A stretch of 64,000 nucleotides of DNA from Falsiroseomonas algicola (GTDB taxonomy: Bacteria; Pseudomonadota; Alphaproteobacteria; Acetobacterales; Acetobacteraceae), in contig NZ_JAAIKB010000008.1 of NCBI RefSeq assembly GCF_011040385.1, positions 124,001-188,000 of the forward strand. Direction: 5' to 3'. The notes beneath the pieces are model-generated. The model ran no database searches, was not told the origin of the DNA, and saw only the letters and a program-made list of their open reading frames with translations. Below are positions 14,422 to 36,222 of this stretch, piece by piece (the first letter of the stretch is position 1; every line of letters starts with the position of its first letter). Position numbers and translations under genes: made by a program.

Positions 14422-14437
14422 ATTTGTCCGGACAGCT
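14422..14437. promoter_or_regulatory. Predicted GntR operator, site 1
   Basis: ATTTGTCCGGACAGCT matches the regional palindrome ATTTGTCCGGACAAAT at 14 of 16 positions, with a perfect TGTCCGGACA core at 14425-14434. The core ends 18 bases before the UPF0317 start codon, where a bound repressor would cover the 5' end of the transcript or the promoter. Confidence 0.75.
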
Positions 14438-14452
14438 TTCCGAGGAGCCCCG

Positions 14453-15256
14453 ATGCCGGACCACCTGCCGCCCATGACCGCGCTGGATGGGAGGGGCGTG
14501 CGCCTCGCCGCCCGGGCGGGGCGGCTGGCCGGCCACACCTCCTCCCTCGCGCCCGGCTTCGTGCAGGGGAACCTGGCCATCCTGCCCGCCGCCCTGGCCG
14601 GTGATTTCCTCCGGTTCTGCCAGCTCAACCCCAAGCCCTGCCCGGTGCTGGGCATCAGCGAGCCCGGGAGCCCCCGACTCCCCGAACTCGGCCACGATCT
14701 CGACCTGCGCACCGACCTGCCGCGCTACCGAATCTGGCGGCAGGGCGTTCTGGTGGAGGAGCCGACCTCGATCGGCCATGTCTGGCGCGATGACCTCGTC
14801 GCCTTCGTCCTTGGCTGCTCCTTCACCTTCGAACACGCGCTGATGGAGGACGGCATCCGCCTGCGCCACGTGGAGCAGGGCCGCAACGTCGCGATGTGGC
14901 GGACCAGCATCGCCTGCGCGCCGGCGGGTTCCTTTGCGGGGCCGATGGTGGTCTCCATGCGACCCCTGGCGCCCGCCGATGCCATCCGCGCCATCCAGAT
15001 CACGACGCGCTTCCCCGGCGTGCATGGCGCGCCCGTGCATCTCGGCCACCCGCACCTCATTGGCATCGATGATCTGTCACGCCCCGACTATGGCGACGCG
15101 GTCGAGGTCGGAGACGACGAAATCCCGGTCTTCTGGGCCTGCGGCGTCACGCCCCAGGCCGTGATCGCCGCGGCGAAGCCCGACTTCGCCATCACCCACG
15201 CGCCCGGCGCCATGCTGGTGACGGACCTCCGCAACAGCAGCCTCGCCGTGCTGTAG
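14453..15256 (+). CDS. UPF0317/DUF1445 (YcsI-like) putative hydro-lyase
   Basis: The 267-residue protein matches the YcsI/UPF0317 family across its length: [13 protein letters not shown] near 33-45, [18 protein letters not shown] near 55-72, a [15 protein letters not shown] stretch, VLGCSFTFE near 120, [27 protein letters not shown] and [12 protein letters not shown] at the end. Some members are called D-glutamate cyclase or hydro-lyase. It is led by a predicted operator 18 bases upstream and is followed by a TRAP transporter and a DUF2848 gene, so it is probably the first enzyme gene of a transport-plus-catabolism operon. Confidence 0.84.
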
Positions 15257-15288
15257 TGCCAACCACCGACAGGGAGAACAGGGGAACC

Positions 15289-16362
15289 ATGACCAGCATC
15301 GTCCAATGGAGCCGCGCCGCACTCGGCGCCGCGCTCGCCATCGGCCTCTCGGCCGGCGCCGCGCTGGCGCAGCCGCAGATCACCATCCAGGCCGTGACGC
15401 AGCCGACGCCGGCCATCCCGCAATACACGCGCGTGGATATCCCGCTGCTGCGCGATGGCCTGCCCGCCGCCAGTAATGGCCGCATCCGCGTGAACCTGGC
15501 CGCCTGGCCGGAGCGCAACCTGAACGGGCCGGAGATCATCCGCCTGGTCCGCTCCGGACAGGTCGAGATCGGCGCCGTGCCGCTCAACACCGTCGCCGGC
15601 GACGTGCCGCTGCTGGACATGGTGGACCTCGCGGGACTCAACCCCACCATCGGCCAGGCCCGCCAGGTGGCGGAGGCGCTGATGCCGGAGGTCAATCGCG
15701 GGCTGGAGCGCTTCGGCGTCCGCGTCATCGCCATGGCGCCCTATCCCGCGCAGGTGTTGTTCTGCCGGGAACGTGCCAATTCGCTGGCCGACCTGCGCGG
15801 CCGCCGCATCCGCACCGGCGGCGGCAGCATCAACGACTTCGTCGCCGCCGTCGGCGGCCAGGCCGTCGGCATCGGCTTCCCGGAAGTCTACGCAGCGTTG
15901 GAACGCGGCGTGGCGGATTGCGCCATCACCGGCACCGGCTCGGGGAATGGCGCCCGCTGGTATGAGGTGACGACGCACATGTATGCGCTGCCCGTCGCCT
16001 GGTCGACCTATGGCTACTTCATCAACCTGGCCTGGTGGAACCGCCTGGATGCGCCGGCGCGCGACCTCATCACCGGCACCTTCGCCAGGATCCAGGACGA
16101 GCAGTGGAAGCTCGGCGATGCGGCGTCGGAGGACGGGATCGCCTGCAACATCGGCGACCGCGCCAACTGCTCCATCGGGCGCCTGGTGGAGAACCGGCCG
16201 ATGACCGTGTCCCGCCCCACGCCCGAGGATCTGCAGACGCTGCGCGGCATCCTGAGCAACAACGTGCTGCCCGCCTTCGTCCGTCGCTGCGGCGCCGCCT
16301 GCGGGGAGACCTACAACCGCATTGTCGCGCCGATCTCCGGCACGCGCTACGAGGCCCGCTGA
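15289..16362 (+). CDS. TRAP transporter substrate-binding protein (DctP type)
   Basis: The ATG at 15289 follows a purine-rich ribosome binding site (agggagaacagggga) and starts a signal peptide, with AAALGAALAIGLSAGAALAQ-like hydrophobic sequence and an ALA-Q cleavage site. The 357-residue protein has the DctP features: RLVRSGQVEIGAVPLN in the first lobe, LADLRGRRIRTGGG with the conserved arginine that binds carboxylates, and FPEVYAALERGVADCAITG. It should bind an organic acid and feed the DctQM proteins encoded next. Confidence 0.87.
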   Translation: MTSIVQWSRAALGAALAIGLSAGAALAQPQITIQAVTQPTPAIPQYTRVDIPLLRDGLPAASNGRIRVNLAAWPERNLNGPEIIRLVRSGQVEIGAVPLNTVAGDVPLLDMVDLAGLNPTIGQARQVAEALMPEVNRGLERFGVRVIAMAPYPAQVLFCRERANSLADLRGRRIRTGGGSINDFVAAVGGQAVGIGFPEVYAALERGVADCAITGTGSGNGARWYEVTTHMYALPVAWSTYGYFINLAWWNRLDAPARDLITGTFARIQDEQWKLGDAASEDGIACNIGDRANCSIGRLVENRPMTVSRPTPEDLQTLRGILSNNVLPAFVRRCGAACGETYNRIVAPISGTRYEAR

Positions 16363-16364
16363 GC

Positions 16365-16985
16365 GTGGAGCGGCCCGCACCTCTGATCCTGCGGGCCGCG
16401 ACCGGCCTGCGCCGCGCGGTCGGCGTCCTCGGCCATGCCATGGGACTCGTCGCCGGCTGGGGCTTCGTGCTCTGCGCCTTCTTCATCACCTTCGATGTGC
16501 TGGCGCGCTCCATCCTGCGCGTCAGCACGCAATCCACCACCGAGATCACCGGCTACATGCTGGCCTTCGGGCTGTCCTGGGGGCTGGCGCATACGCTGAC
16601 GCAGAGGTCGCATGTGCGGATCGACATGCTGGTGAACCGGCTGCCGCAGCGCATCCGCATCTGGCTGCATCTGCTGTCGCTGCTGGCGCTCGGCGTCTTT
16701 ATGGCCTTCATCGCCAATGGCGCCTGGGACCTGGTGGATGAAAGCCTGCTGTTCAACGCCACCGACATCAGCCTGCTGCGCACGCCGCTCGCCATCCCGC
16801 AGGGCCTCTGGGCCGCGGGCATGGTGGTCTTCCTGGTGCTGATCGCCTGCATGCTGGTGGAGAACCTGCTGCTGGCCATCCTGGGCGATGCCCGTCAGGT
16901 CGAGCGCAACCTCTCCTCCCGCGGCTATGACGAGGAGGCGCAGGAGGCGCTGGAAGCATTGGGCGTCACGGAGACGAAGCCATGA
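16365..16985 (+). CDS. TRAP transporter small permease (DctQ type)
   Basis: The start is GTG 16365, two bases after the DctP stop; the longer open frame to the left is the shadow of DctP. The 206-residue protein has four hydrophobic segments, with the DctQ sequence GYMLAFGLSWGLAHTLTQRSHVRIDML between segments two and three. The C-terminal tail is acidic (DEEAQEALEALG). It overlaps the large permease start by ATGA. Confidence 0.85.
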   Translation: MERPAPLILRAATGLRRAVGVLGHAMGLVAGWGFVLCAFFITFDVLARSILRVSTQSTTEITGYMLAFGLSWGLAHTLTQRSHVRIDMLVNRLPQRIRIWLHLLSLLALGVFMAFIANGAWDLVDESLLFNATDISLLRTPLAIPQGLWAAGMVVFLVLIACMLVENLLLAILGDARQVERNLSSRGYDEEAQEALEALGVTETKP

Positions 16986-18355
16986 TCGCCGTCGTCTTCA
17001 TCCTGGTGATGCTCGTCGTCTTCCTCGGCCTGTCACTGACCGGGACGGGCGGCGGCGTCGATGTGCCGATCAGCGCGGTACTGCTGCTGCTCGGCGTCTT
17101 CGGCGGCTTCTTCGCGGCCGGCATCTATGTCGGCGCCGCACTGGGCGTGCTGGGTCTGCTGGCCGGCTTCGCCTTCTCCGACCGCCCCTTCTGGACCTTC
17201 CTGGGCCAGACGGCCTGGAGCCCCTCCTCCTCCTTCGTGCTCGTCGCCGTGCCGCTCTTCCTGCTGATGGGGGAGATCCTGCTGCGCGCCGGGTTGTCGG
17301 AACGGCTCTACCGCGCGCTGAACCTCTGGCTGAACCGCATGCCGGGCGGGCTGCTGCACACGAACATCGTGGCGTCCGGCGTCTTCTCCGCCATCTCCGG
17401 CTCCTCCGTCGCCACGGCGGCCACCATGGGATCGGTCGCCATGCCCTTCTTCCAGGGCCGCGGCTACGACCCGAAGATGGTGATGGGCAGCCTCGCCGCG
17501 GGCGGCGCGCTGGGCAACCTGATCCCGCCGGGCATCACCTTCATCATCTACGCGTTGATCACGGAAACCTCCGTCGGCGCGCTGTATCTCGCGGCAGTCG
17601 GCCCCTCCATCCTGGTGATGGGGCTGTTCATCGCGGTGATCCTTCTGAAGAAGAACGCTGCGCCGCCGCCCGGCCCGGTGATCCCGTTGGGGGAGAAGAT
17701 TCGCGGACTGGTCGGGCTGATCCCGACCATCCTGCTGATCCTCATCGTGCTCGGCACCATCTATGCAGGCCTCGCGACGCCCACAGAATCCGCCGCGCTC
17801 GGCGTGGTGGCCGCCATCGGAATCGCCGTGGTCGAGCGCCGCTTCTCCTTCCGCATGCTGCATGCCAGCGCAGAGGCGACGGCGCGCAACACCGCGATGA
17901 TCGGCCTCATCCTGCTCGGCGCCTATGTGCTGAACTACGTCATCACCATGCTGGGCGTGCCGCAGATGATGGCGGGGCTGGTGTCCGGCCTGCCGCTGCC
18001 GCCATGGGCGATCATGGCGCTGATCATCGGCTTCTACCTGGCGCTGGGGACGTTCATGGAGGGCTTCTCCATGATCATCACCACCATCCCCGTGATCTTC
18101 CCCGTGGTGACGGCGCTCGGCTACGATCCGATCTGGTTCGGCGTCGTCGTCACCATGCTGGTGGAGATCGCGCTGATCAGCCCGCCCGACGGCACGGTGC
18201 TGTATGTGCTGCAGGGCCTGCGCAAGGATGGCGGCGCCATCGGCGATGTCTTTGCCGGCGTGCTGCCCTTCGTCGCCGTCTACATCCTGGCGATCGTGCT
18301 GATGATGATCATGCCCGACATCGCGCTCTGGCTGCCCCGCGCCGCCGGCCCCTGA
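16982..18355 (+). CDS. TRAP transporter large permease (DctM type)
   Basis: The 457-residue protein has about twelve membrane segments and DctM hallmarks: VPLFLLMGEILLRAGLSERLY, FSAISGSSVATAATMGSVAMP, GGALGNLIPPGITFIIYA and a C-terminal ALISPPDGTVLYVLQG. It is the sodium-driven translocation subunit for the binding protein at 15289. The operon continues into the DUF2848 gene 11 bases downstream. Confidence 0.92.
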   Translation: MIAVVFILVMLVVFLGLSLTGTGGGVDVPISAVLLLLGVFGGFFAAGIYVGAALGVLGLLAGFAFSDRPFWTFLGQTAWSPSSSFVLVAVPLFLLMGEILLRAGLSERLYRALNLWLNRMPGGLLHTNIVASGVFSAISGSSVATAATMGSVAMPFFQGRGYDPKMVMGSLAAGGALGNLIPPGITFIIYALITETSVGALYLAAVGPSILVMGLFIAVILLKKNAAPPPGPVIPLGEKIRGLVGLIPTILLILIVLGTIYAGLATPTESAALGVVAAIGIAVVERRFSFRMLHASAEATARNTAMIGLILLGAYVLNYVITMLGVPQMMAGLVSGLPLPPWAIMALIIGFYLALGTFMEGFSMIITTIPVIFPVVTALGYDPIWFGVVVTMLVEIALISPPDGTVLYVLQGLRKDGGAIGDVFAGVLPFVAVYILAIVLMMIMPDIALWLPRAAGP

Positions 18356-18366
18356 GGACACAGCCC

Positions 18367-19038: not shown

Positions 19039-19047
19039 CGACATGGA

Positions 19048-19063
19048 CATTGTCCGGACAAAG
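19048..19063. promoter_or_regulatory. Predicted GntR operator, site 2 (regulator's own promoter)
   Basis: CATTGTCCGGACAAAG has the perfect core TGTCCGGACA at 19051-19060 and matches the regional palindrome at 13 of 16 positions. It lies 46 bases upstream of the GntR start codon and 12 bases after the DUF2848 stop, so it points to autoregulation. Confidence 0.75.
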
Positions 19064-19106: not shown

Positions 19107-19880
19107 ATGGCGGGCAAGGGCGCTGCTTCGGGCTTGGGTCTCGCACAGGGCGCCGATCGCAGTTCATTGCCGCTCTATGCCCGCATCGAGGCGCAGTTGC
19201 GGGAAGCGATCGCCCAGGGCGACTATGCCGTCGGCACCCTGCTGCCCACAGAGGCCGAGCTTTGCGAGACGCTCCGCGTCTCCCGCCACACCATCCGCGA
19301 AGCGCTGCGCCGCCTGGTCGAATCCGGCCTGGTGGAGCGCCGGCAGGGCGCGGGCACCATGGTGGTGGCGCGGGAAGCGCCGAGCGGCACGGTGCAGTCC
19401 ATGCGCAGCATCGAGGCGCTGTTCCAATACGCCGCCGACACGCGCCTCGACATCCGCAGCCGCCGCATGGCGCCGCTGGCGCCGGAGGATGCGGCCGCGA
19501 TCCCGGCGCCGGTCGGGGAGCAATGGCTGACCCTGGAAGGGCTTCGCATCGGTCAGGACGGCGCGCCGATCGCGACCGCCGACGTCTTCATCCACCCCCG
19601 CTTCGCCGCCATCGCCAATGCGCTGCCGGAACGCGGCGCCATCTACGCGATGATCGAGAGTCGCTTCGGCGTGGAGGTCGCGGAGGTGATCCAGGAGATC
19701 ACCGCCGCCCCGATGCCCACCGCCGTCGCTGCCGCGCTCGGCCGCAAGCCCCGCGCCGTCGGCATGCGGTTCCTCCGCCGCTACCTCGGCACGGACGGCG
19801 CGACGCTGCTGCTCTCCCGCTCCTGGCACGCGGCGGAGCGCTTCACCTATGCCATGCGGCTGCGTCGCGGCGAGGGGTGA
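19107..19880 (+). CDS. GntR-family transcriptional regulator, HutC/UTRA subfamily
   Basis: The 257-residue protein has a winged HTH at about 22-88 (LPLYARIEAQLREAIAQGDY, then PTEAELCETLRVSRHTIREALRR, then a GLVERRQGAGTMV wing) and a UTRA effector domain from about 105 to 250. HutC-type regulators bind palindromes of the form TGT-n4-ACA. The palindrome in front of this gene and of six other units in the island has exactly that form, so this protein is the obvious candidate to bind them. It is probably a repressor released by a pathway intermediate. The family is certain; the regulon assignment is inference. Confidence 0.9.
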   Translation: MAGKGAASGLGLAQGADRSSLPLYARIEAQLREAIAQGDYAVGTLLPTEAELCETLRVSRHTIREALRRLVESGLVERRQGAGTMVVAREAPSGTVQSMRSIEALFQYAADTRLDIRSRRMAPLAPEDAAAIPAPVGEQWLTLEGLRIGQDGAPIATADVFIHPRFAAIANALPERGAIYAMIESRFGVEVAEVIQEITAAPMPTAVAAALGRKPRAVGMRFLRRYLGTDGATLLLSRSWHAAERFTYAMRLRRGEG

Positions 19881-19912
19881 GGGGCTTCCGCCCAGGAAAA
19901 GCTGCGCCTAGG

Positions 19913-19941: not shown

Positions 19942-20826
19942 ATGCCGACCTCGCCATGGCCGCAGGATTCCCGCCTCGCCCTCTCCATCGTCGTGAATGT
20001 GGAGGAAGGCGCCGAGATGTCGGTGCGCGACGGCGACAAGGGGCCGGAGCCGGTCGATGAGCTGGGCGTCCACCTGAAGGTGCCGATCCGCAATTTCGCG
20101 AATGAATCCAACTACCTCTACGGCATTCGCGCGGGCTGGCCGCGCGTCGCGGCGCAGCTGGCGAAGCACGAGGTCAAGGCCACCTTCACCGCCGCCGCCA
20201 TGGCGCTTGAACGCGCGCCGGAGATCGGACGCGCCATCGCGGAGGGCGGGCACGAGGCCTGCAGCCATGGCTGGCGCTGGATCCACCAATTCTCCTATGA
20301 CGAGGCGCGGGAACGCGACTTCGTGCGCAAGGCCGTGACCTCCATCGCCGCGACCGCGGGCCATCGGCCCATCGGCTGGCTGTCCCGCTATCTCCATTCC
20401 CCGCGGCTGCGCACCACGCTGGCGGAGGAAGGCTTCCTCTACCACATGGACGACTTCTCCGACGATGAGCCGCGCTGGGACGTGGTGGAGACGAAGGATG
20501 GCCCGCGCGCCATCGTCATCATGCCCTATGCGCTGGACAGCAACGACATGAAGTTCTGGCTGGCGCCCGGGTACACGCCGCAGCAATGGCTGGACTATGC
20601 CGTGGAGACCTTCGACGTGCTCTACGAGGAAGGGGCCAGCGTCACGCGGATGATGTCGCTCGGCGTGCATCTGCGCATCATCGGCAGACCGGGCCGCATC
20701 GGCGCCTTCGGGAAGTTCCTGCAATATGCCCGCAGCAAGCCCGGCGTCTGGATGGCCACGCGCGCCGAGATCGCCCGCGCCTTCGCCGCCAACACCCCCC
20801 CGCCCGCGGAGCCCGCCGCCCGATGA
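19942..20826 (+). CDS. Polysaccharide-deacetylase-fold hydrolase, PuuE-like
   Basis: The ATG at 19942 (MPTSPWPQDSRLALSIVVNV) is chosen because a TTG 27 bases upstream lies inside the operator. The 294-residue protein has the NodB fold in its PuuE-type form: NVEEGAEMS in place of the metal-binding Asp-Asp pair, GGHEACSHGWRW near residue 100 and an RYLHSPRLRTTL segment. PuuE relatives hydrolyse cyclic ureides such as allantoin, or other cyclic amides, rather than sugars. It could open a ring or remove an N-acyl group. It overlaps the MmgE/PrpD start by ATGA. Confidence 0.8.
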   Translation: MPTSPWPQDSRLALSIVVNVEEGAEMSVRDGDKGPEPVDELGVHLKVPIRNFANESNYLYGIRAGWPRVAAQLAKHEVKATFTAAAMALERAPEIGRAIAEGGHEACSHGWRWIHQFSYDEARERDFVRKAVTSIAATAGHRPIGWLSRYLHSPRLRTTLAEEGFLYHMDDFSDDEPRWDVVETKDGPRAIVIMPYALDSNDMKFWLAPGYTPQQWLDYAVETFDVLYEEGASVTRMMSLGVHLRIIGRPGRIGAFGKFLQYARSKPGVWMATRAEIARAFAANTPPPAEPAAR

Positions 20827-22211: not shown

Positions 22212-22231
22212 CGCAGCGCCTCCCCGGCCCT

Positions 22232-22247
22232 ATTTGTCCGGACAAAT
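22232..22247. promoter_or_regulatory. Predicted GntR operator, site 4 (perfect 16-bp palindrome)
   Basis: ATTTGTCCGGACAAAT is a perfect 16-bp palindrome. It sits between the PrpD stop and the acyl-CoA dehydrogenase ATG, with its core (22235-22244) ending 21 bases before that start. Confidence 0.8.
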
Positions 22248-22265
22248 TCCACGGGAGCACCAGCC

Positions 22266-26997: not shown

Positions 26998-27028
26998 GGC
27001 GGCTTGCGTCCTCGGCTGGCTTCCGTTG

Positions 27029-27044
27029 ATATGTCCGGACAACT
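27029..27044. promoter_or_regulatory. Predicted GntR operator, site 5 (divergent)
   Basis: ATATGTCCGGACAACT matches the regional palindrome at 14 of 16 positions with a perfect core at 27032-27041. It lies between the leftward CoA-transferase (ATG at 26997) and the rightward MmgE/PrpD gene, so one site could serve both directions. Confidence 0.75.
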
Positions 27045-27068
27045 TTGCTGGCAAACGGGGTCGTTGCC

Positions 27069-28400
27069 TTGGGCACCTTGACCGAGGGTATCGCCGCGCT
27101 GCTCCGCCGTCCCATCTCCGATGCGGATCGGGAGCGGGCCGCGCTGCACCTGCTGGACTGGATCGGCTGCGCCGTCGCGGGTGCGGCCAGCGAGACCGGC
27201 GCCGTCTTCCGCCGCCAGGCCGCACGACAGCCCAAGGGCGCCGCGCGCGTGATCCTCGGCGCGGCCCTTACCGCGCGTGATGCCGCCTTCGCCAATGGCG
27301 CCTTCGGCAATGTGCTGGAGATGGATGACGTGCATCGGGAAGCGATCCTGCATCCCGGTCCCGTCGTCATGCCCGCCGCGCTCGCTTTGGCGGCGGAGGG
27401 CGGTGCCGATGGCCCCGCGCTGCTGGATGCGATCATCCGTGGCTACGACGCGGAAATCCGCATCGGGCGCGCCATGGGCCACGCGCATTACCGCCAGTTC
27501 CACCCGACCGCGAGTTGCGGCCCCTTCGGCAGCGCCGCAGCCGCGGCCTCGCTGCTCGGCCTCGACGACGACGCCACTGTCTGGGCGCTCGGCAATGCCG
27601 GCACGCAGACGGGCGGCGTCTGGCAATGCCGGGCCGAGCCGGTGATGACGAAGCAGTTGCACACGGCCCGCGCCGCGGCGATGGGGCTGGAAGCCGCGCT
27701 GCTGGCCGCCGATGGGCTGACCGGACCGAAGCAGATCCTGGAAGGGGCGCTCGGCGTCTTCGCCGGCATGGCGCCGGATGCGAAGCCGGACCGCGTGCTC
27801 GCCGATCCCAGCGCGCCTTGGTTGATCCATGAGACCAGCTTCAAGCCCTGGCCCGCCTGCCGCCACTGCCACGCCACCATCGACGCCGCGCTCGCGCTGC
27901 GCGACTGGGTGGCGGGCCGCGACATCGCGGCGATCGAGGTCGCCGCCTATGCCGATGCCGTCGCCTTCTGCGACCGCGTTCAGCCGGAAAGCGTGATCCA
28001 GTCGAAATTCTCGCTGCAGCACGCCGTCGCGGTCACGCTGCGGAACGGCCCGCCGCCGCTGGAGGCCTTCGCCCCCGCCTGCTTCACCGACCCGTCGCTG
28101 GCCGCCTTGCGTGACCGCGTCACGCTGCTGCGCGATCCGGGTTTCACCGCCGCCTATCCCGCGCGCTACGGTAGCGCCGTCACCGTCACGCTGGCCGATG
28201 GCGAAGCACGCCGGGCCGACATCCCCGATGCCCTCGGCGATCCCGAGAATCCGCTGCCCGTCGCCGACATCATCGACAAGGCGCGCCGCCTGATGCGCAG
28301 CGCCGGCGTGGCCGATGACGCGATCGAGCGCGTCATCGCCGCCACCCTTGCCTTGCCCCGCGGTGCCGCCGCCGCATCGCTCGATACCATCCTGCCCTGA
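27069..28400 (+). CDS. MmgE/PrpD-family protein (second copy)
   Basis: The frame has no ATG near its start; candidates are TTG 27045, which abuts the operator, TTG 27069 and TTG 27078. I prefer 27069 (then GTLTEGIAALLRR) for its distance from the operator. The 443-residue product has LLDWIGCAVAG near 40, NGAFGNVLEMDDVHREAILHPGPVVMPA near 79-106 and TSFKPWPACRHCHATIDA near 257-274. It differs clearly from the copy at 20823, so they are probably not a recent duplication. It heads an operon with the PaaK-like ligase and amidase. Confidence 0.82.
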   Translation: MGTLTEGIAALLRRPISDADRERAALHLLDWIGCAVAGAASETGAVFRRQAARQPKGAARVILGAALTARDAAFANGAFGNVLEMDDVHREAILHPGPVVMPAALALAAEGGADGPALLDAIIRGYDAEIRIGRAMGHAHYRQFHPTASCGPFGSAAAAASLLGLDDDATVWALGNAGTQTGGVWQCRAEPVMTKQLHTARAAAMGLEAALLAADGLTGPKQILEGALGVFAGMAPDAKPDRVLADPSAPWLIHETSFKPWPACRHCHATIDAALALRDWVAGRDIAAIEVAAYADAVAFCDRVQPESVIQSKFSLQHAVAVTLRNGPPPLEAFAPACFTDPSLAALRDRVTLLRDPGFTAAYPARYGSAVTVTLADGEARRADIPDALGDPENPLPVADIIDKARRLMRSAGVADDAIERVIAATLALPRGAAAASLDTILP

Positions 28401-28414: not shown

Positions 28415-29806
28415 ATGACCGTCTTCGACTATGTGACGGCGATGGACCATCCGGCGCTGCTGCGGGACTTCCCCATCGGCACCGATTATCCCGGCGCGCT
28501 GCGCGGCCTGTCTCGGGATGCATTGCGTGCGCGGCAGGATGCGGATTTCCGCAAGCTCCTCGCCTTCGCCTGGAAGGTGCCCTTCTACCAGCGGCTCTGG
28601 GGCGCCAAGGGGATCGAGCCCGGCGACATCAAGGGCCTCGATGACCTCCCGAAGCTGCCCTCCTACGACAAGTCGGACCTCATGGCCTCCGTCGCGGCCC
28701 ATCCGCCGATCGGCGACTTCCACGGGCAGGAAGCACACCCGCCGGAACGCCGCCCGCAGATCATCATGCAGACCACCAGCGGCACCACCGGCACGCCGCA
28801 ACCGCTGCTCTTCGGCCCGAAGAGCCGGGAGGTGCAGAACCGTCTGCTGGCGCGCATGTACCTGCTGGCCGGCATGACGCGGGACGACGTCGTCCATTCC
28901 GTCTATGGCCACGGCATGATCAATGGCGGCCATTATGTGCGGGAGACGGTGACGCATTGGGTCGGCGCGCGCTTCCTCAGCGCCGGGACTGGCGTGGAGA
29001 CACGCTCCGCCCAACAGGTCTTCATCATGAAGCAGTTCGGCGCCACCGCCATCGTGGGCTTCGCCGACTACATCAAGCGCCTCGCGGAAGTGGCGCGGGA
29101 GGAAGGGCTGGAACCCGGCCGCGACCTCCCCATCCGCCTGATCTGCGCCCACCTCGGCAGCGAAAGCCAGGCGAGCCTCTCTGCCGCCTGGGGCGGTGCC
29201 GCGGTCTATGACTGGTACGGCGTCGGCGATACCGGGATCATCGCCGGCGAAGGCCCGGACCGCACCGGCATGCATGTGATGGAGGATGCGCATGCGCTGG
29301 AGATCGCGGACCCCGATACCGGCTTGCCCGTGCCGGAAGGCACGCTGGGCGACATGGTCTGCACCTGCCTCTTCAAGGACGACATCTTCCCGATCATCCG
29401 CTTCAACACGCATGACGTGACGGAGGAGGTGCTGGGGGCCAATCCGCTCGGCATCCCCTTCCGCCGCATCAAGGGGTTCCTTGGGCGCAGCGACAACATG
29501 GTGAAGCTGCGCGGCATCAACCTCTTCCCGACGGGCATCGGCGCGCTGCTGGTGGAGCAGTGCGAGACGGCGACGGGCGACTTCATCTGCCGCGTCGGGC
29601 GCAGCGATGGTCGCGATGCGATGGTGGTCCACCTGGAGGTGCGCGGCGATGCCGATGCGGCGCTGCAGTCGCGCCTTGAAGCCGCGCTCCGCACGCGGCT
29701 CGGCGTCGAGATCGGCGTGGCGCTCTGCGCGCCCGGCTCGCTCGCGGCGCTCACGCAGGTGGAAAGCCGGCAGAAGCCGATCCGGCTGATCGACGACCGC
29801 AAGTGA
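28415..29806 (+). CDS. Phenylacetate-CoA ligase (PaaK)-like AMP-binding protein
   Basis: The 463-residue protein has the adenylate-forming motifs in PaaK form: TTSGTTGTP at 120-128, DWYGVGDTG around 267-275, PIIRFNTHDVT near 329 and the hinge GRSDNMVKLRGINLFPTGI around 356-374. The C-terminal domain follows. It should convert a carboxylic acid to its CoA ester with ATP. It lies 14 bases after the MmgE/PrpD stop and overlaps the amidase start by GTGA. The acid activated could be aromatic, but PaaK-like proteins are diverse. Confidence 0.85.
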   Translation: MTVFDYVTAMDHPALLRDFPIGTDYPGALRGLSRDALRARQDADFRKLLAFAWKVPFYQRLWGAKGIEPGDIKGLDDLPKLPSYDKSDLMASVAAHPPIGDFHGQEAHPPERRPQIIMQTTSGTTGTPQPLLFGPKSREVQNRLLARMYLLAGMTRDDVVHSVYGHGMINGGHYVRETVTHWVGARFLSAGTGVETRSAQQVFIMKQFGATAIVGFADYIKRLAEVAREEGLEPGRDLPIRLICAHLGSESQASLSAAWGGAAVYDWYGVGDTGIIAGEGPDRTGMHVMEDAHALEIADPDTGLPVPEGTLGDMVCTCLFKDDIFPIIRFNTHDVTEEVLGANPLGIPFRRIKGFLGRSDNMVKLRGINLFPTGIGALLVEQCETATGDFICRVGRSDGRDAMVVHLEVRGDADAALQSRLEAALRTRLGVEIGVALCAPGSLAALTQVESRQKPIRLIDDRK

Positions 29807-31068
29807 CGCCGAGCGACATCCCCGCGCTGCTCGCCCGCATCGCGGCGGAGGATGGCGCGATCGGCAGCTTCTGGCAGGTGGATCGCGAGGGCGCGCTGGC
29901 CGCCACGCCTGCCGGGCGCGGTCCGCTGGTCGGCGTCGCCATCGGCATCAAGGACAATGTCGATGTCGCGGGGCTGCGCACCACCGCGGGCATCGCGGCC
30001 TTCAGGCATCGCGTGGCCGACCGCGACGCGCCCGTGGTGCGACGCCTGCGGGAGGCCGGGCTCGTCATCCTCGGCAAGCTGGCGATGCATGAGGGCGCGC
30101 TCGGCGCCACCACCGATACCCCGGGCTTCGGCCGCTGCATGAACCCGCTGCGGGCGGGCTACACGCCGGGCGGATCCTCCGGCGGGTCCGGCGCGGCCGT
30201 CGCGGCGGGCCTCGTGCCGCTCGCGGTCGGTACGGACACGATGGGCTCCGTGCGCCTCCCCGCCGCCTATTGCGGCGTCTTCGGCCTGAAGCCGACATCC
30301 GGGCTGGTCGGGCGCAGCGGCGTCGTGGCCCTCTCGCCCCGCCTCGACCATGTCGGCATCCTGGCCGCCAGCATCGAAGGCGCCGCGCTGGGGCTGGAGG
30401 CGATGGCGGGCGACGACCCCGACGACCCCGACAGCCGTCCCACGCCCCCAGGCTGGCGTGCCCTGCCCGCGGCCCCGGCCGACCCAAGGGGGCTCCGCAT
30501 CGGCCTGCCGGAGCCGGTGCTGGCCGCCCCGATGGAGCCTGCCATCCGCGCGGCCTGGGAGGCAGCGCAGGCGCGGCTGCGCGAGGCCGGCGCCATCCTC
30601 TCGCCCGTGCCCGTTGCGGGCTGGGATCTGACCGCCACGCGCCGCGCCGGCCTGCTGCTGATCGAGGCCGAGGCCGCCGCGCTGCACCCTGCCCTGGTCG
30701 ATGACCCGGAGGCCGCCACGCCAGGTTTCCGCGCCGCCCTCGCCTATGGACGGGATGCCAAGGGCGTGCGCATCGCTCAGGCCTTGTTCCGCCTGGCGGA
30801 GGCGCGGGCTGGCGCGCTGCGCGCTCTCGATCACTGCGACCTGCTGCTGATGCCGACAGCGCCGCAGCGCGCCTTCCCGCATGGCACGCCGGCGCCGGTG
30901 GACCAGGCGGATTTCACCGCCATCGCCAATGTCGCAGGCCTGCCCGCGCTGGCCTTCCCCTGGCCGGCGCCGGATGGCGATCTGCCCTGCTCGCTTCAGC
31001 TCATGGGCCCCGCTTATGGGGAGCAGGCGATCTGCGCGCTGGCGGCGTGGTTGCTCAGGGCGCGGTGA
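29803..31068 (+). CDS. Amidase (amidase signature family)
   Basis: The start is GTG 29803 in a GTGA overlap with the ligase stop. The 421-residue protein carries the Ser-cisSer-Lys triad: GIKDN with Lys50, GGSSGGSG with the cis-serine at 125, and TDTMGSVR with the nucleophile at 149. The conserved TGGS is changed to TMGS. It should hydrolyse an amide bond of the substrate, releasing ammonia or an amine. It overlaps the leftward enoyl-CoA hydratase by 14 bases tail to tail. Confidence 0.87.
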   Translation: MTPSDIPALLARIAAEDGAIGSFWQVDREGALAATPAGRGPLVGVAIGIKDNVDVAGLRTTAGIAAFRHRVADRDAPVVRRLREAGLVILGKLAMHEGALGATTDTPGFGRCMNPLRAGYTPGGSSGGSGAAVAAGLVPLAVGTDTMGSVRLPAAYCGVFGLKPTSGLVGRSGVVALSPRLDHVGILAASIEGAALGLEAMAGDDPDDPDSRPTPPGWRALPAAPADPRGLRIGLPEPVLAAPMEPAIRAAWEAAQARLREAGAILSPVPVAGWDLTATRRAGLLLIEAEAAALHPALVDDPEAATPGFRAALAYGRDAKGVRIAQALFRLAEARAGALRALDHCDLLLMPTAPQRAFPHGTPAPVDQADFTAIANVAGLPALAFPWPAPDGDLPCSLQLMGPAYGEQAICALAAWLLRAR

Positions 31069-31834: not shown

Positions 31835-31860
31835 GGCGAATTTCTAACGCGGCATCGGCG

Positions 31861-31876
31861 ACTTGTCCGTACAAAT
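31861..31876. promoter_or_regulatory. Predicted GntR operator, site 6 (variant core, divergent)
   Basis: ACTTGTCCGTACAAAT matches the regional palindrome at 14 of 16 positions; the core is TGTCCGTACA at 31864-31873, the only copy with a change in the central GG. It lies 26 bases from the leftward hydratase start and 66 bases from the TRAP binding-protein start. Confidence 0.62.
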
Positions 31877-31942
31877 TTCTTGTCCCCTTGCCGGACCCAT
31901 GCTTGGCTTCCATCCCAGCAACCAACGGCCAGGGAGAGTGGG

Positions 31943-32944
31943 ATGCTTCGACGCGATGTGATGAAGGCTGCCGGCGGGCTGGCGCTGGCAGCGGGCGCTG
32001 CCGGCACCGCCACGGCGCAGGCGCCGACGCGCTGGGACATCTCCATCCCCTGGGGCCCCAACGAATTCCACACCGTGAACGCGCAGCGCTTCGCCACCGA
32101 AGTGCGCAACGCCACCAACGGTGCCGTGCAGATGACGGTTCATGCCGGCGGGTCGCTTGGCGTCCGGGCGAATGAGACGGTGCGCGCGGTCGGTGATGGC
32201 GTGGTGCCGATGGCGGAATTCACCGCCTTCCAGAATGTCGGCGACCTGCCGATCCTCGGCATCGAGAGCATCCCCTTCCTGATCAGCAACTATGACGAGC
32301 TGCAGATCATGCACTCCCTGGTCCGCCCGATCTGGGAGAGGGAGCTGGAGCGGCGCAACCAGACGGTGCTCTACATGTGCCCCTGGCCCACGCAGCTCTT
32401 CTATTTCAAGCGGCCGATCGCGACGGCGGCCGACCTGCGCGGCATCCGCATGCGGACCTATGACCGCGTGACGGCGGAGATGTGCACGCGGCTCGGCATG
32501 GTGCCGCAGCAGCTGACCAATCCGGACGTCGTGCCAGCGCTCGCCTCCGGCCGCGTCGATGCGGTGATGACCAGCGGCACCACCGCCGTCGCCCAGCGCT
32601 ACTGGGAATTCCTGAAGCACGCCTATGTCACCAACCACCTCTGGGCGACCAATTTCATGGTCGTGAACAACGATGCCTGGCGCCGCCTGCCGGCCGCGAC
32701 GCGCACGACGATCGCCGATCTCGGCAAGCGGCTGGAGCCGGAATTCTGGAACGTCTCCAAGGGCGAGCACACGCTGCGCATGGGCGAATTGCAGCAGAAC
32801 GGCATGACGGTGGAGGACCCGCCGGCCGCCCTGCTGCAGGCGGTGCGCCAGGCGACGGCCACGATGGGCGACGAATTCGTCCGCGCCAATCCGGCCGCCG
32901 GACCCATCCTGCAGCAGTTCCGCCAACGCGTCGGCCGGGCCTGA
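31943..32944 (+). CDS. TRAP transporter substrate-binding protein (DctP type), second system
   Basis: The ATG at 31943 follows agggagagtggg and starts MLRRDVMKAAGGLALAAGAA, a twin-arginine-like signal with a TAQA cleavage region. The longer frame to the left belongs to the antisense of the hydratase. The 333-residue protein has the DctP segments ADLRGIRMRTYDRVTAEM with the carboxylate-binding arginine, and VVPALASGRVDAVMTSG. Its permease genes lie downstream at 33404 and 33955, separated by a leftward small gene, so transcription of the system may be split. Confidence 0.86.
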   Translation: MLRRDVMKAAGGLALAAGAAGTATAQAPTRWDISIPWGPNEFHTVNAQRFATEVRNATNGAVQMTVHAGGSLGVRANETVRAVGDGVVPMAEFTAFQNVGDLPILGIESIPFLISNYDELQIMHSLVRPIWERELERRNQTVLYMCPWPTQLFYFKRPIATAADLRGIRMRTYDRVTAEMCTRLGMVPQQLTNPDVVPALASGRVDAVMTSGTTAVAQRYWEFLKHAYVTNHLWATNFMVVNNDAWRRLPAATRTTIADLGKRLEPEFWNVSKGEHTLRMGELQQNGMTVEDPPAALLQAVRQATATMGDEFVRANPAAGPILQQFRQRVGRA

Positions 32945-32955
32945 CGCGCGGCGTG

Positions 32956-33330
32956 TCAGCGCTGTCCGCTGGCCGTGATGTGCTCGACATGGCGCATCAC
33001 GGCAGCCCCCGCACGCGCCCAGCATTGATGGCCGTGGATCAGGATCGCGATGCTGAGCGCTTCCATGATCTGCCCGGGCGTCAGGCCGGCGCGCAGCCCG
33101 GCCTCGGCATGCGCGACAGCGCCCTCGACATGGCCCGCAGCCACGTCGAGCACGATGAAGACGAGTTCCTTGCTGGCAAGTGGCAGGTGCCCCTCCGGCG
33201 GCAGCCGATACGCGGCCTCCCGCGCCGCCAGATAGGCGGCGAAGGCCTCCGGCGCATGGCGCTGCAGCAGCGCCACGCTGTCCGGCACGCCGCCGATGGT
33301 CTGCCCGAAATGGTCATTCGCTTCGTCCAT
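32956..33330 (-). CDS. Carboxymuconolactone decarboxylase (CMD/AhpD-like) family protein, no CxxC
   Basis: The start is ATG 33330, giving 124 residues; a longer form from 33405 would overlap the DctQ start codon and is disfavoured. The product has LASKELVFIVLDVAAGHVEGAVAHAEAGLRAGLTPGQIMEALSIAILIHG, the core CMD pattern, but no CxxC pair, so an AhpD-type peroxidase role is unlikely. It sits inside the TRAP operon on the opposite strand. The true substrate is unknown; the family ranges from gamma-carboxymuconolactone decarboxylase to small hydrolases. Confidence 0.72.
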   Translation of the reverse strand: MDEANDHFGQTIGGVPDSVALLQRHAPEAFAAYLAAREAAYRLPPEGHLPLASKELVFIVLDVAAGHVEGAVAHAEAGLRAGLTPGQIMEALSIAILIHGHQCWARAGAAVMRHVEHITASGQR

Positions 33331-33403
33331 AGCCACGCCCCGCGCTGCACCGATGGCCCCCATTGGGCCGTGATTCGAGCCAGGAGAGAAGGCCGCGTGA
33401 TCC

Positions 33404-33958
33404 ATGACTGAATCCGCATCAGGGCGTGGCCCTATCGACCTGCTGCTGCGTGCCGTCGATGGGGCCTGCACGATCGGCGCCTGGGTCGCGGCCGTGGCCG
33501 CCGGGCTGCTCGCCCTCATCCTGATCACGGAGGTCGTCGCGACCTCCTTCTTCAGCTGGTCGCAGCCCTGGGCGGTGGAATACGCGATCTACCTGCAATG
33601 CATGGTGCTGTTCTGCGGCGCCGGCTGGACCCTGCGGCAGGGCGGGCATATCCGGGTCGCCATCATGCTGCAGGCGCTGCCGGTGCCGGCCGCGCGCATC
33701 CTTGACATGGCAGGCTGCGCCTTCGCCATCGGCGTGCTCGGCTACGCCTGCTCGGCGCTCTGGCAGCAATGGCTGCGCACCGTCGATTTCGGCTCCACCT
33801 CCTTCTACCCGATGGCGACGCCGCTCTGGATTCCCCAAGGGTTCCTGACGCTGGGCGTCACGCTGCTGGTGCTGGCCTTCGCGGCGCGGCTGGTCCGGCT
33901 GCTGCTGGGGCAGGAGACCGAGGCCAAGGCCGCCTTGTCCGGCGGAGGCGTCGAATGA
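33404..33958 (+). CDS. TRAP transporter small permease (DctQ type), second system
   Basis: The 184-residue protein has four hydrophobic segments and the DctQ pattern VEYAIYLQCMVLFCGAGWTLRQGGHIRVAIML. The start ATG 33404 is preceded by AGGAGAG at 33382-33388. It overlaps the DctM start by ATGA. It should support the translocator below and use the binding protein at 31943. Confidence 0.85.
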   Translation: MTESASGRGPIDLLLRAVDGACTIGAWVAAVAAGLLALILITEVVATSFFSWSQPWAVEYAIYLQCMVLFCGAGWTLRQGGHIRVAIMLQALPVPAARILDMAGCAFAIGVLGYACSALWQQWLRTVDFGSTSFYPMATPLWIPQGFLTLGVTLLVLAFAARLVRLLLGQETEAKAALSGGGVE

Positions 33959-35250
33959 CCGGCCCCCTCACCCTCGTCCTCGGCATGCTCGTCGTCACCC
34001 TGGCGGGTGGCGTCTGGGTCGGCGTCGGGCTGATGTCGATCGGCATCGTGGCGCTCGAGGTCTTCCGCGACATGCGCGTGGACCGCTTCCTCGCCGGCGA
34101 CATCTGGTCCAGCTCCACGGCGGTCGAGCTCATCACGCTCCCGCTCTTCATCCTGATGGGGGAGATCCTGTTCCATACGCGGCTGTCGGAGAATCTCTTC
34201 GCCGGCCTCTCGCCCTGGACTCGGCGGCTGCCGGGGCGGCTGCTGCATGTGAACGTGCTGGGCTGCACCCTCTTCGCCGCCGTCTCCGGCAGCAGCGCCG
34301 CCACCACGGCGACCGTCGGGCGCATCACGCTGCAGGAACTGCTCGGCCGCGGCTATGACCGGCGGCTCGCGGTGGGCTCGCTCGCCGGCGCAGGCACGCT
34401 CGGCTTCCTCATCCCGCCCTCCATCCCGATGATCGTCTATGGCGTCGTCGCCGATGTCTCGATCCTGGAGCTGTTCATGGCCGGCATCGTGCCGGGCCTG
34501 ATGCTCGCGCTGATGTTCATGGGCTGGATCGGTTTCCGTGCGTGGCAGGATCCGAAGCTGGTCCCGGCCAGGGAGCCCGCCATCCCGCGGAAGGAAGCGC
34601 TGATCGCGCTGGGCCAGCTCGCGCCCATCGCCTTCCTCATCCTCTTCGTCATGGGCAGCCTCTATTTCGGCTTTGCCAGCATCACGGAAGCGGCCGCGAT
34701 CGGCGTGCTCGGCTCCCTCATCGTCGCGCTGGCGCAGCGGACGCTGACGCTGGCCGGGATGTGGGGCGCGCTGCTCGGCACGGTGCGCACCTGTTCCATG
34801 ATCGGGCTCATCATCGTGGGCGCGCTGTTCCTGTCCAAGGCCATGGCACGGCTCGGCCTGCCGGCGGATGTGGCGAATGCCATCCAGTCCTGGGGCCTGC
34901 ATCCCTGGATGCTGATCTTCGTCCTGCTGCTGTTCTACCTGGCGCTGGGCTGCATCCTGGATGGCCTCTCCGCCATCGTCATGACGCTGCCCGTCACGCT
35001 GCCGCTGGCCGTGGCGGCGGGCTTCGACCCGATCTGGTTCGGCGTCTTCCTCATCATCACCATCGAGATGGCGCAGATCACGCCCCCCGTCGGCTTCAAC
35101 CTCTTCGTCATCCAGGGCCTGACGAAGGAGGGTATCTTCAGGATCGCCGCCTATGCCTGGCCCTTCTGCGTCATCATGATGATCTTCACCGCCCTCATTA
35201 CCGTGGTCCCCGACATCGTGACGGCATTGCCGAAATCGCTGCGCGGATGA
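33955..35250 (+). CDS. TRAP transporter large permease (DctM type), second system
   Basis: The ATG at 33955 overlaps the DctQ stop; a longer open frame upstream is the shadow of DctQ. The 431-residue protein has about twelve membrane segments and DctM hallmarks: LPLFILMGEILFHTRLSENLF, FAAVSGSSAATTATVGRI, GAGTLGFLIPPSIPMIVYG and AQITPPVGFNLFVIQG. The last motif keeps PPVG, unlike the PPDG of the first system. It overlaps the next gene by ATGA. Confidence 0.92.
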   Translation: MTGPLTLVLGMLVVTLAGGVWVGVGLMSIGIVALEVFRDMRVDRFLAGDIWSSSTAVELITLPLFILMGEILFHTRLSENLFAGLSPWTRRLPGRLLHVNVLGCTLFAAVSGSSAATTATVGRITLQELLGRGYDRRLAVGSLAGAGTLGFLIPPSIPMIVYGVVADVSILELFMAGIVPGLMLALMFMGWIGFRAWQDPKLVPAREPAIPRKEALIALGQLAPIAFLILFVMGSLYFGFASITEAAAIGVLGSLIVALAQRTLTLAGMWGALLGTVRTCSMIGLIIVGALFLSKAMARLGLPADVANAIQSWGLHPWMLIFVLLLFYLALGCILDGLSAIVMTLPVTLPLAVAAGFDPIWFGVFLIITIEMAQITPPVGFNLFVIQGLTKEGIFRIAAYAWPFCVIMMIFTALITVVPDIVTALPKSLRG

Positions 35251-36182
35251 TGGGCAGGCTCGGCGGCCTCATCCGCCGCCATGGCCTGCCGATGATCGCG
35301 GCAGGGGCCTTCATCGGCATCGCGCTGCCCGACCTGGCGAGTGCGATGCGGCCCTGGCTGGTCGCGCTCTCCATCGGCACGATGATGGTGGCGCTGCTGC
35401 GGATCGAGCCCGCGGATTTCGGCGCGGTGCTCCGCCGGCCGACACTCGCGATCATCATCCTGGCCTGGGTGACGCTGGTGGTGCCGGCGGGCGTCTGGCT
35501 GGCGCTGCGACCCTTCCTGGCCCCTGACTCGCCCTTCCTCGCCGCCGCCGTGCTGATCGCGGCGACGCCCTCGGTCATGTCGGCCTCCGCCTTCGCCATC
35601 CTGCTTGGCGCCGATGGCGCGCTGCTGACGGTGGTGGGCATTCCCTCCAACGCGCTGGCACCGGCCTGGCTGCCGATGGTGGCGTCGCTGATGGGGGTGG
35701 GCGCGCAGGTCGATCCGCTGGCCATGGCGCAGCGGCTCGCGGTGCTGGTTGGCGGCAGCTTCGCGGGCGCCATCCTGGCCGTGCGGGTCTTCGGCCGCCC
35801 CGCCATCCGCCGCGCCGCGCCGGGGCTCGATTCGGCGGTGGTGCTGCTGATCACGCTCTCCGCCATCCCCTGCATGGATGGCGTGGGGCCGGCGCTGATG
35901 GCGCGGCCCGCCACCTTCGCGGCCATGCTGGCCTTCGCGCTCGGCCTCAACATGGTGCTGCAGGTGATCGGCTACCTGGTCTTCCGGCCCGCGCCCGTGG
36001 CCGCCGCGCTCTCCGCCGCGCTTGTCACGGGGTCGCGCAACAACGTCCTGCTGCTGGCTGCGATCGGCGCGCCGGGGGATGGCGACCTCAGCCTCATCAT
36101 CTCCGCCGCCCAGCTCACGCTCTTCATCATGCCGAGCCTGGTGGCACCGACCTATCGCGCCATCGCCCGCAGGCGCCGTTGA
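35247..36182 (+). CDS. Bile acid:sodium symporter (BASS)-like transporter
   Basis: The start codon overlaps the DctM stop (ATGATG; 35247 chosen, 35250 possible). The 311-residue product has about nine to ten hydrophobic segments, glycine- and alanine-rich, with ALSIGTMMVALLRIE early and GSRNNVLLLAA and PSLVAPTYRAIARRRR near the end. The pattern resembles BASS/SBF carriers. It could export a product or give a second uptake route. The family call is moderate because it rests on topology and short motifs. Confidence 0.65.
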   Translation: MMGRLGGLIRRHGLPMIAAGAFIGIALPDLASAMRPWLVALSIGTMMVALLRIEPADFGAVLRRPTLAIIILAWVTLVVPAGVWLALRPFLAPDSPFLAAAVLIAATPSVMSASAFAILLGADGALLTVVGIPSNALAPAWLPMVASLMGVGAQVDPLAMAQRLAVLVGGSFAGAILAVRVFGRPAIRRAAPGLDSAVVLLITLSAIPCMDGVGPALMARPATFAAMLAFALGLNMVLQVIGYLVFRPAPVAAALSAALVTGSRNNVLLLAAIGAPGDGDLSLIISAAQLTLFIMPSLVAPTYRAIARRRR

Positions 36183-36206
36183 ACCGCAAGGCGGGCTCGG
36201 CTATGA

Positions 36207-36222
36207 ATTTGTCCGGACAAAT
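36207..36222. promoter_or_regulatory. Predicted GntR operator, site 7 (perfect 16-bp palindrome)
   Basis: ATTTGTCCGGACAAAT occurs here in full, identical to site 4. The core 36210-36219 ends 16 bases before the MaoC start codon at 36236. This marks the right end of the predicted regulon. Confidence 0.8.

Follow-up and report, generated by a model that had tools for sequence, protein, structure and literature searches.

A conserved palindrome as the predicted operator of a HutC-type GntR regulator in a catabolic gene cluster of Falsiroseomonas algicola

Why should one short palindrome recur seven times beside the genes of a single 22-kb cluster? The question is raised by a 64,000-nucleotide stretch of Falsiroseomonas algicola DNA (contig NZ_JAAIKB010000008.1, positions 124,001 to 188,000; hereafter the window), in which the decamer TGTCCGGACA accompanies TRAP transporter, MmgE/PrpD, CoA-transferase and hydrolase genes. 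The initial annotation of the window had proposed that the palindrome marks a 22-kb regulon of a GntR regulator encoded inside it. Our analysis supports this proposal through the clustering, conservation and co-occurrence of the sites, with binding as a prediction, and points to a conserved operator of a HutC-type regulator subfamily that is broader than first claimed. Taken as a whole, the likely explanation is that the palindrome is the operator of a repressor encoded at 19107-19880, which would govern a substituted-succinate regulon. We regard the pairing of operator and regulator as very likely and repression by this protein as quite likely, and we hold the substituted-succinate chemistry with moderate confidence.

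We located exact copies of TGTCCGGACA at 14425, 19051, 19916, 22235, 27032 and 36210, and a copy with one mismatch, TGTCCGTACA, at 31864. The full 16-mer palindrome ATTTGTCCGGACAAAT is perfect at 22232 and 36207. These results reproduce the coordinates of the initial annotation, and its random expectation of about 0.06 agrees with the 0.059 copies computed for the window at its GC content. With one mismatch allowed, the 64 kb hold 7 decamers where shuffled sequences average 1.74, and for the 16-mer with up to three mismatches the corresponding figures are 7 and 0.05; in both cases 0/100 shuffles reached 7. The whole 6.56-Mb genome contains 16 exact decamers, of which the window accounts for 6, and 3 copies of the reversed control. 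The 10 exact decamers outside the window are unremarkable by count alone, about 6 being expected genome-wide at the GC content of the window. The 16-mer with up to three mismatches is found at 16 genome places, 7 of which lie within the 22 kb (reversed control, 0), so that the genome-wide search shows concentration in the cluster and not random scatter. The clustering is not due to chance, which was rejected on the shuffle and reversed-control counts.

The protein encoded at 19107-19880 contains a GntR helix-turn-helix (HTH) domain (PF00392, 80.8 bits, cut-off 27) and a UTRA domain (PF07702, 49.6 bits, cut-off 23.8), and the HutC-type regulator proposed for the cluster is thus present. Assignment as a HutC or PhnF equivalog was rejected because both scores fall under the curated cut-offs (TIGR02018, 84.8 bits against 220; TIGR02325, 92.9 bits against 156.8). 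Operator palindromes of the HutC subfamily are typically of the form GT-N4-AC, according to PMC4494728, and TGTCCGGACA likewise has GT and AC four nucleotides apart. Because the site has this subfamily form and overlaps promoter-like elements (see below), the protein is probably an autoregulated repressor.

Gene families were assigned from Pfam and NCBIfam profile scans of the open reading frames (ORFs) of the window. The cluster reads as follows, the operators being predicted:

14422..14437: operator 1 (ATTTGTCCGGACAGCT), upstream of the D-glutamate-cyclase-family gene; least conserved site
14453..15256, plus: putative hydro-lyase / D-glutamate cyclase family protein (UPF0317); PF07286 223.4 bits; NF003969 416.6 bits, cut-off 324
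15256..16362, plus: TRAP solute-binding protein DctP (1); PF03480
16383..16985, plus: TRAP small permease DctQ (1); PF04290; ORF 16035-16985
16982..18355, plus: TRAP large permease DctM (1); PF06808
18352..19038, plus: DUF2848 protein; PF11010; ORF 16888-19038
19048..19063: operator 2 (CATTGTCCGGACAAAG), upstream of the regulator gene (autoregulation proposed)
19107..19880, plus: GntR/HutC-type regulator with UTRA domain, proposed repressor; PF00392, PF07702
19913..19928: operator 3 (ATTTGTCCGGACAACA)
19942..20826, plus: PuuE-like hydrolase (polysaccharide deacetylase family), candidate cyclic imide hydrolase; PF01522 40.7 bits
20823..22211, plus: MmgE/PrpD protein 1 (PrpD1); PF03972 and PF19305
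22232..22247: operator 4, perfect 16-mer
22266..23435, plus: acyl-CoA dehydrogenase; PF00441, PF02771, PF02770; best solved relative 4iv6
23432..24637, plus: CoA-transferase family III (A); PF02515; ORF 23360-24637
24637..25764, plus: CoA-transferase family III (B); PF02515
25765..26997, minus: acetyl-CoA hydrolase/transferase family protein; PF13336; ORF 25765-27225 minus
27029..27044: operator 5 (ATATGTCCGGACAACT), between divergent genes
27069..28400, plus: MmgE/PrpD protein 2 (PrpD2); PF03972 and PF19305; start uncertain
28415..29806, plus: PaaK-like AMP-forming CoA ligase; PF14535 38 bits; TIGR02155 145.8 bits, cut-off 646.3
29803..31068, plus: amidase (amidase signature family); PF01425
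31055..31834, minus: enoyl-CoA hydratase/isomerase family protein; PF00378
31861..31876: operator 6, variant core TGTCCGTACA, between divergent genes
31943..32944, plus: TRAP solute-binding protein DctP (2); PF03480; ORF 30881-32944
32956..33330, minus: carboxymuconolactone decarboxylase (CMD) family protein; PF02627; ORF 32956-33528 minus
33404..33958, plus: TRAP small permease DctQ (2); PF04290
33955..35250, plus: TRAP large permease DctM (2); PF06808; ORF 33769-35250
35247..36182, plus: hydrophobic, membrane-type protein (by eye), 63-94% identical in 10 congeners; no Pfam match at 1e-3
36207..36222: operator 7, perfect 16-mer
36236..36754, plus: MaoC-like hydratase, itaconyl-CoA hydratase (RipB/Ich)-like; PF19315, PF01575; NF038241 225.2 bits, cut-off 340

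A gyrB/parE-family gene lies to the right of the cluster. The palindrome precedes the first gene and stands at or beside each unit boundary. The units are UPF0317-DctPQM-DUF2848; the regulator gene; PuuE-like-MmgE/PrpD 1; the acyl-CoA dehydrogenase with two family III CoA-transferases; the minus-strand acetyl-CoA hydrolase/transferase gene, divergent from MmgE/PrpD 2-PaaK-like ligase-amidase; the minus-strand enoyl-CoA hydratase gene, divergent from DctP2 and later DctQ2-DctM2-35247 protein; and MaoC. The proposal that the sites head transcription units therefore stands with one correction: divergent genes flank the sites at 27032 and 31864, which thus also head the minus-strand CoA-hydrolase/transferase-family and enoyl-CoA hydratase genes, respectively. 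The distances from site to assigned start are 18 nt (14453), 46 nt (19107), 16 nt (19942), 21 nt (22266), 29 nt (31834, minus), 69 nt (31943) and 16 nt (36236), and 34 nt from site 5 to the minus-strand start placed at 26997. For the plus-strand gene after site 5 an ATG start is lacking, and its start could be any of three TTG codons (27045, 27069 or 27078). DctQ2, DctM2 and the 35247 protein have no palindrome directly upstream in the window, which for DctQ2 and DctM2 follows from the CMD-family gene that lies after DctP2. This minus-strand gene sits within the DctP2-DctQ2 gap and splits the TRAP genes; in congeners G005, G007 and G009 it adjoins the enoyl-CoA hydratase gene instead. In two other congeners (loci L052 of G013 and L053 of G004), DctQ2 and DctM2 are only 54-65% identical to those of the window against 85-99% for adjoining genes, as if the TRAP permease genes had been replaced locally.

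We searched 99 genomes with the regulator, its own included, at a threshold of 1e-40, and 18 matched: the genome itself, 10 of 14 congeners (65-95% identity) and 7 more distant genomes (37-45%). Genes and sites were then mapped in 20-40 kb around the 10 congeneric orthologues. The exact core was found in 10/10 congeners at site 2 and at site 4, in 9/10 at site 3 (exception, G005), and in all 9 congeners whose stretch covers site 7, that of G005 ending short. At site 6 a one-base variant is present in 10/10, as TGTCCGTACA in 6 and TGTCCGAACA in 4. Site 5 occurs in 6/6 congeners that have the divergent CoA-hydrolase/transferase gene and in 0/4 that do not. The pattern of sites 5 and 6 indicates that the predicted operators follow the transcription units. 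Site 1 has the exact core in G006, G013 and G004 and one core mismatch in G001; in G012 the contig ends there and the site could not be counted. The palindrome is thus mostly kept in relatives that keep the genes, site 1 being the exception. An additional gene lies between site 2 and the regulator gene in G005, G009 and G012; that of G009 (L063:15568-16314) belongs to the arylmalonate decarboxylase family (PF17645), and those of G005 and G012 appear alike by eye.

The presence of the regulator tracks that of the palindrome across the genus. The 11 genomes with an orthologue hold 16, 6, 4, 14, 8, 13, 10, 10, 15, 17 and 14 decamers, and the four without hold 4 (G014), 0 (G011), 1 (G002) and 0 (G010), with 0-3 for the reversed decamer across the 15 genomes. 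For the 16-mer with up to two mismatches the counts are 3-8 with an orthologue and 2, 0, 0 and 0 without, the control being 0 throughout; both sets of counts include the cluster's own sites. The cluster ligase is present in 11/11 genomes with the regulator and 0/4 without (threshold 1e-60), so part of the decamer difference is the cluster itself. Among these four genomes a comparable GntR protein occurs in G014 alone (37% identity, 1.4e-34), the best matches of the other three being about 1e-12 to 1e-14. The three genus genomes lacking such a regulator hold 1, 0 and 0 decamers, compared with 4-17 in the 11.

Promoter-like hexamers with 16-18 bp spacing overlap the site. At site 4, TTGACG or TTGACC stands upstream of the acyl-CoA dehydrogenase gene in 11/11 genomes, and at site 2 the TTGTCC of the palindrome itself is followed 17 bp on by a -10-like hexamer, also in 11/11. 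Mean hexamer scores exceeded all 200 shuffles at five of the six sites scanned (sites 1-5 and 7; position ranges were set after viewing the alignment). The best -10-like hexamer of four genes (D-glutamate-cyclase, PuuE-like, acyl-CoA dehydrogenase and MaoC) has its first base at -9 to -4, counted from the core, and touches or overlaps the site's left arm. These sites lie 16-21 nt from the four start codons, a position that suits a repressor. We propose that a dimer of the 19107-19880 protein would bind TGTCCGGACA, best in the form ATTTGTCCGGACAAAT, and that binding would overlap promoter elements of the regulator gene and the other cluster units and block their transcription. A small organic acid, amide or acyl-CoA derived from the substrate may then bind the UTRA domain and release the repressor.

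Outside the genus, a contig scan gave 333 regulator relatives; the best 80 of 333 loci were kept, and leaving out the 10 congeneric ones gave 70. The decamer TGTCCGGACA is present in 31 of these 70 loci, with 51 copies in loci of up to 20.8 kb, a locus count that ignores kinship. It ranks first of 320 palindromic decamers of the same composition (next, 15 loci; median, 1), and the best other TGTNNNNACA palindrome is found in 4/70 loci. Perfect 16-mers occur in the Rhodobacter/Rhodobacteraceae loci L106 and L112. On Tistrella plasmid pTM2, the site has on one side an acetyl-CoA hydrolase-family gene followed by the GntR gene and on the other a divergent MmgE/PrpD-ligase-amidase run. From these comparisons, the palindrome belongs to a predicted regulator subfamily of alpha- and betaproteobacteria and not to this cluster alone. 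We also observed a regulator homologue on a Methylobacterium currus plasmid (L276) amid genes annotated as hydroxymethylglutaryl-CoA lyase, CoA transferase, isocitrate lyase/PEP mutase and leuC/leuD, a gene set in which a branched organic acid theme would recur.

Protein and site may vary together. We take His61 and Ala50 of the window regulator to be positions 39 and 28 of the subfamily numbering, by our own alignment with the YvoA sequence. Of 81 regulators compared, 71 carry H, F or Y at residue 61, and the other 10 carry N, S, Q or A; the decamer is present in 41/71 loci of the former and 0/10 of the latter, statistics that ignore phylogeny. Five Comamonadaceae loci carry ATTTGTTCGTACAAAT ahead of the MaoC gene and one Ramlibacter locus carries ATTTGTACGTACAAAT there. 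In Comamonadaceae loci L121, L125, L130, L132 and L138, with ATTTGTTCGTACAAAT in this place, the residue aligned to His61 is Ser, which suggests co-variation of protein and site.

Several results weigh against the repressor-operator explanation or its substrate. Site 1 is absent in G003, G005, G007, G008 and G009, where the best 16-mer has 6-7 mismatches. G014 offers nothing closer than a 37% homologue, whose 3.4-kb locus lacks a site even when one mismatch is allowed, yet this genome holds 4 decamers. Outside the genus, 39/70 homologue loci lack the exact decamer, among them 4/4 Sphingomonas and 4/6 Bordetella-labelled loci, and only 5/18 betaproteobacterial loci with a close acyl-CoA dehydrogenase have it. 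A second GntR/UTRA protein, 38% identical, adjoins a copy of the site in the same genome (contig C22:721136), and this paralogue, which is outside the 81, has Ala at the position aligned to His61 yet adjoins the decamer; a strict rule that H, F or Y means CCGG is weakened by it. The position ranges of the promoter scan were chosen post hoc, and at the PrpD2 site 140 of 200 shuffles reached the observed score. On the pathway side, the MaoC, PuuE-like and ligase proteins score under the curated cut-offs of the named enzymes, and no HpcH/HpaI lyase of the (S)-citramalyl-CoA lyase (Ccl) type was found among the cluster ORFs scanned.

In at least one of 37 congener stretches, 7 of the 10 exact decamers outside the window (the distal sites) are matched by a decamer no more than 60 bp from the corresponding position. 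All of these stretches were chosen for holding a site, so agreement among the closest congeners (about 86-95% identity) may reflect no more than common descent. More weight goes to the cases in which nucleotide identity is down to 74-82% and the matching genes adjoin the site. They are C33:494380 (ABC-type binding protein; kept in G001 and G008), C66:135646 (fused DctQM / DctP; kept in G007), C90:206835 (OYE-type reductase, TIGR03997 509.5 bits, cut-off 793; kept in G014) and C44:189993 (amidohydrolase / peptide-type binding protein; kept in G009 and G005, with the binding protein gene kept and the amidohydrolase unmatched). In G009 (L198) and G005 (L207) an OYE-family gene, 34-35% identical to the C90 one, flanks the C44:189993-matching site on its other side, and in L069 (C90:206835) and L192 (G014) the palindrome stands just upstream of the OYE/FadH-type reductase gene. 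C55:234322, C55:241603 and C66:220083 have no matching site in the 37 congener stretches and are not claimed as regulon members. With conserved distal sites, limitation to the window was rejected, and the regulon is probably wider than 22 kb. Of the regulon first proposed, the linkage of its genes by the sites is supported; its 22-kb extent is probably too narrow, the palindrome appears to be subfamily-wide and a second GntR gene adjoins a site.

That second gene lies beside CCTTGTCCGGACAACA, between an isochorismatase-family gene and a TctC gene. Its surroundings (L191, C22:716000-734000) contain GntR/UTRA, isochorismatase-family, TctC, PuuE-like, family III CoA-transferase, RipC-like lyase and AtzE-like amidase genes with one palindrome, and by family the locus is a second set of the themes of the window cluster. 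The PuuE-like gene there scores 369.3 bits to TIGR03212 (cut-off 424.6). Control of the C22 HpcH/HpaI gene by the C22 site was rejected, a minus-strand PuuE-like gene lying between them. It is a substantial possibility, somewhat short of even, that the window and C22 regulators share the operator and that the distal sites form separate or overlapping regulons. The C22 protein has, like the window protein, Ala at aligned position 28, adjoins CCTTGTCCGGACAACA and has orthologues (95-98%) in G006, G013 and G004, and G014 keeps the C90-matching site without a close orthologue of either protein. However, the other genus genomes have no C22 orthologue, their best matches (37-40%) being window-type regulators, and G002, G010 and G011 have no C22 GntR match at 1e-25. 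G001, G005, G007, G008 and G009 have a window-type regulator and no C22 orthologue yet keep distal sites next to matching genes, so the window-type regulator is the candidate there.

In gene content the cluster looks like an itaconate/methylsuccinate CoA pathway preceded by imide/amide-hydrolysing steps, and a substrate can be proposed from these genes. A family III CoA-transferase gene and an acyl-CoA dehydrogenase gene, the latter adjoining an MmgE/PrpD gene, are present at 20823-24637 (family level). PrpD1 has cis-aconitate decarboxylase as its best solved relative, and PrpD2 and the betaproteobacterial PrpD of L116 have iminodisuccinate epimerase; PrpD1 is 24-26% identical to the other three MmgE/PrpD proteins compared. 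The MaoC homologues of four other GntR loci score 212-246 bits to NF038241, likewise below the cut-off. By TIGR03212 (242 bits, cut-off 424.6) the PuuE-like protein is not an allantoinase, and its PDB relatives are 1z7a and 3cl6. Under the substituted-succinate explanation, the two TRAP transporters would import acids; the PuuE-like hydrolase, amidase and D-glutamate-cyclase family protein would open cyclic imide or amide bonds; MmgE/PrpD would adjust the configuration of a substituted succinate; the CoA-transferases and ligase would activate it with CoA; and the acyl-CoA dehydrogenase and the Ich-like MaoC would dehydrogenate and hydrate the product, much as in itaconate/methylsuccinate degradation. 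The imide front end is tentative; it is suggested by the PuuE-like, amidase and UPF0317 genes and by analogy with HxnM/HxnN of Aspergillus.

Alternatively, the substrate might be a breakdown product of another N-heterocycle or of an aromatic compound, the Ich/Mcd-like genes being no more than distant relatives; we rate this at roughly one chance in three. The PaaK-like ligase, the CMD-family gene, the two unlike MmgE/PrpD proteins and the failure to find a lyase in the cluster speak for such a substrate. Against it, 18 betaproteobacterial GntR loci encode acyl-CoA dehydrogenases that share 67-75% identity with that of the window, and in most of these loci MaoC (55-63%), CoA-transferase and PrpD genes are present as well. 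Some alphaproteobacterial clusters, including those of Rhodobacteraceae, carry a RipC/Ccl-like HpcH/HpaI lyase (203.6 and 242.2 bits, cut-off 375); the lyase of L112 has four matches in the F. algicola genome, none on the window's contig C88 and the best on C22 (37%). A more specific form of the substituted-succinate explanation is rather unlikely: that an undescribed UTRA repressor-TGTCCGGACA pair governs substituted-succinate catabolism and that in Falsiroseomonas and some Rhodobacteraceae this pair has acquired control of an imide/amide front end, which would make the regulon a route for natural succinimides or maleimides bearing substituents, such as the ring fragments left by larger N-heterocycles. 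In the first step an OYE-type enzyme (C90:206835) would reduce the double bond of the ring, and PuuE-like ring opening, amide hydrolysis, isomerisation, CoA activation, dehydrogenation and hydration would follow.

That the palindrome is an operator of the GntR subfamily while the protein is an activator or dual regulator is improbable. The DctP2 start is 69 nt downstream of site 6, where no promoter was assigned, and the scan at the PrpD2 site was negative, as an activator would allow; the -10-like hexamers at four genes, abutting or overlapping a site close to the start codon, suit blocking instead, and the -35-like hexamer of the regulator gene is inside its site. That the repeats represent mobile or repetitive DNA, words for methylation or uptake, or clustering by chance is very improbable, for although short palindromes can be restriction or methylation words and 3 of the 10 exact copies outside the window have no congener match, the flanks differ between copies (on which ground a mobile element or repeat family was rejected), three genus genomes have 0-1 copies, and the copies stand at gene starts and survive divergence.

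A literature search on TGTCCGGACA, and on TTGTCCGG with GntR, gave no bacterial regulator site of this kind among the matches listed, and none of those listed for regulator and pathway terms described the regulon, in line with the initial annotation, which knew of no description. Two papers on the itaconate/methylsuccinate cluster, PMC12290011 and PMC9875883, do not discuss such a regulator in their main text, where the first never uses the word "regulator" and the second never uses "GntR". The palindrome supplies a specific DNA word and a likely protein partner for a GntR subfamily often found beside substituted-dicarboxylate genes in alpha- and betaproteobacteria. It can be used for genome-wide finding of further pathway members and hints at growth on a compound derived from an imide or amide. 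The unusual residues facing a C/G-centred site bear on how UTRA-type repressors change specificity.

Compared with known systems, the cluster is closest in gene content to the itaconate-methylsuccinate cluster of Pseudomonas and Cupriavidus (ict, ich, ccl, mcd, msi), for which PMC12290011 reports enzyme assays and PMC9875883 genetic tests. Both combine genes for a family III CoA-transferase, an acyl-CoA dehydrogenase, MmgE/PrpD and an Ich-like MaoC with transporter genes. In contrast to that cluster, a ccl-type lyase was not found in the present one, which has two MmgE/PrpD proteins, adds a PaaK-like ligase, an amidase, a PuuE-like hydrolase and a UPF0317 protein, and places several units under one palindrome. 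The PuuE-like family is shared with PuuE allantoinase and with cyclic imide hydrolases (HxnM of Aspergillus and the imidase of P. putida YZ-26); unlike PuuE allantoinase, the protein here stays under the TIGR03212 cut-off, and its imidase activity is putative. HxnM and the amide hydrolase HxnN of Aspergillus act in series according to PMC9304392, and here too an amidase shares the predicted regulon with a PuuE-like hydrolase. With the HutC subfamily (HutC, NagR/YvoA, PhnF, DasR) the system shares the GntR HTH and UTRA domains, the GT-N4-AC palindrome and a regulator gene within its own regulon with a site upstream. The centre of the site is CCGG here, compared with the MTAK core of the consensus quoted in PMC4494728, a difference that bears on the motif and not on domain membership. 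In that paper the central bases of the site are tied to HTH position 39, and site positions 8/17 to HTH position 28, the latter pair being what we read as the base next to GT; Met is most frequent at position 39 and Arg at position 28 there, whereas in the present regulators position 39 is H, F or Y in 71/81 and position 28 is Arg in 0/81.

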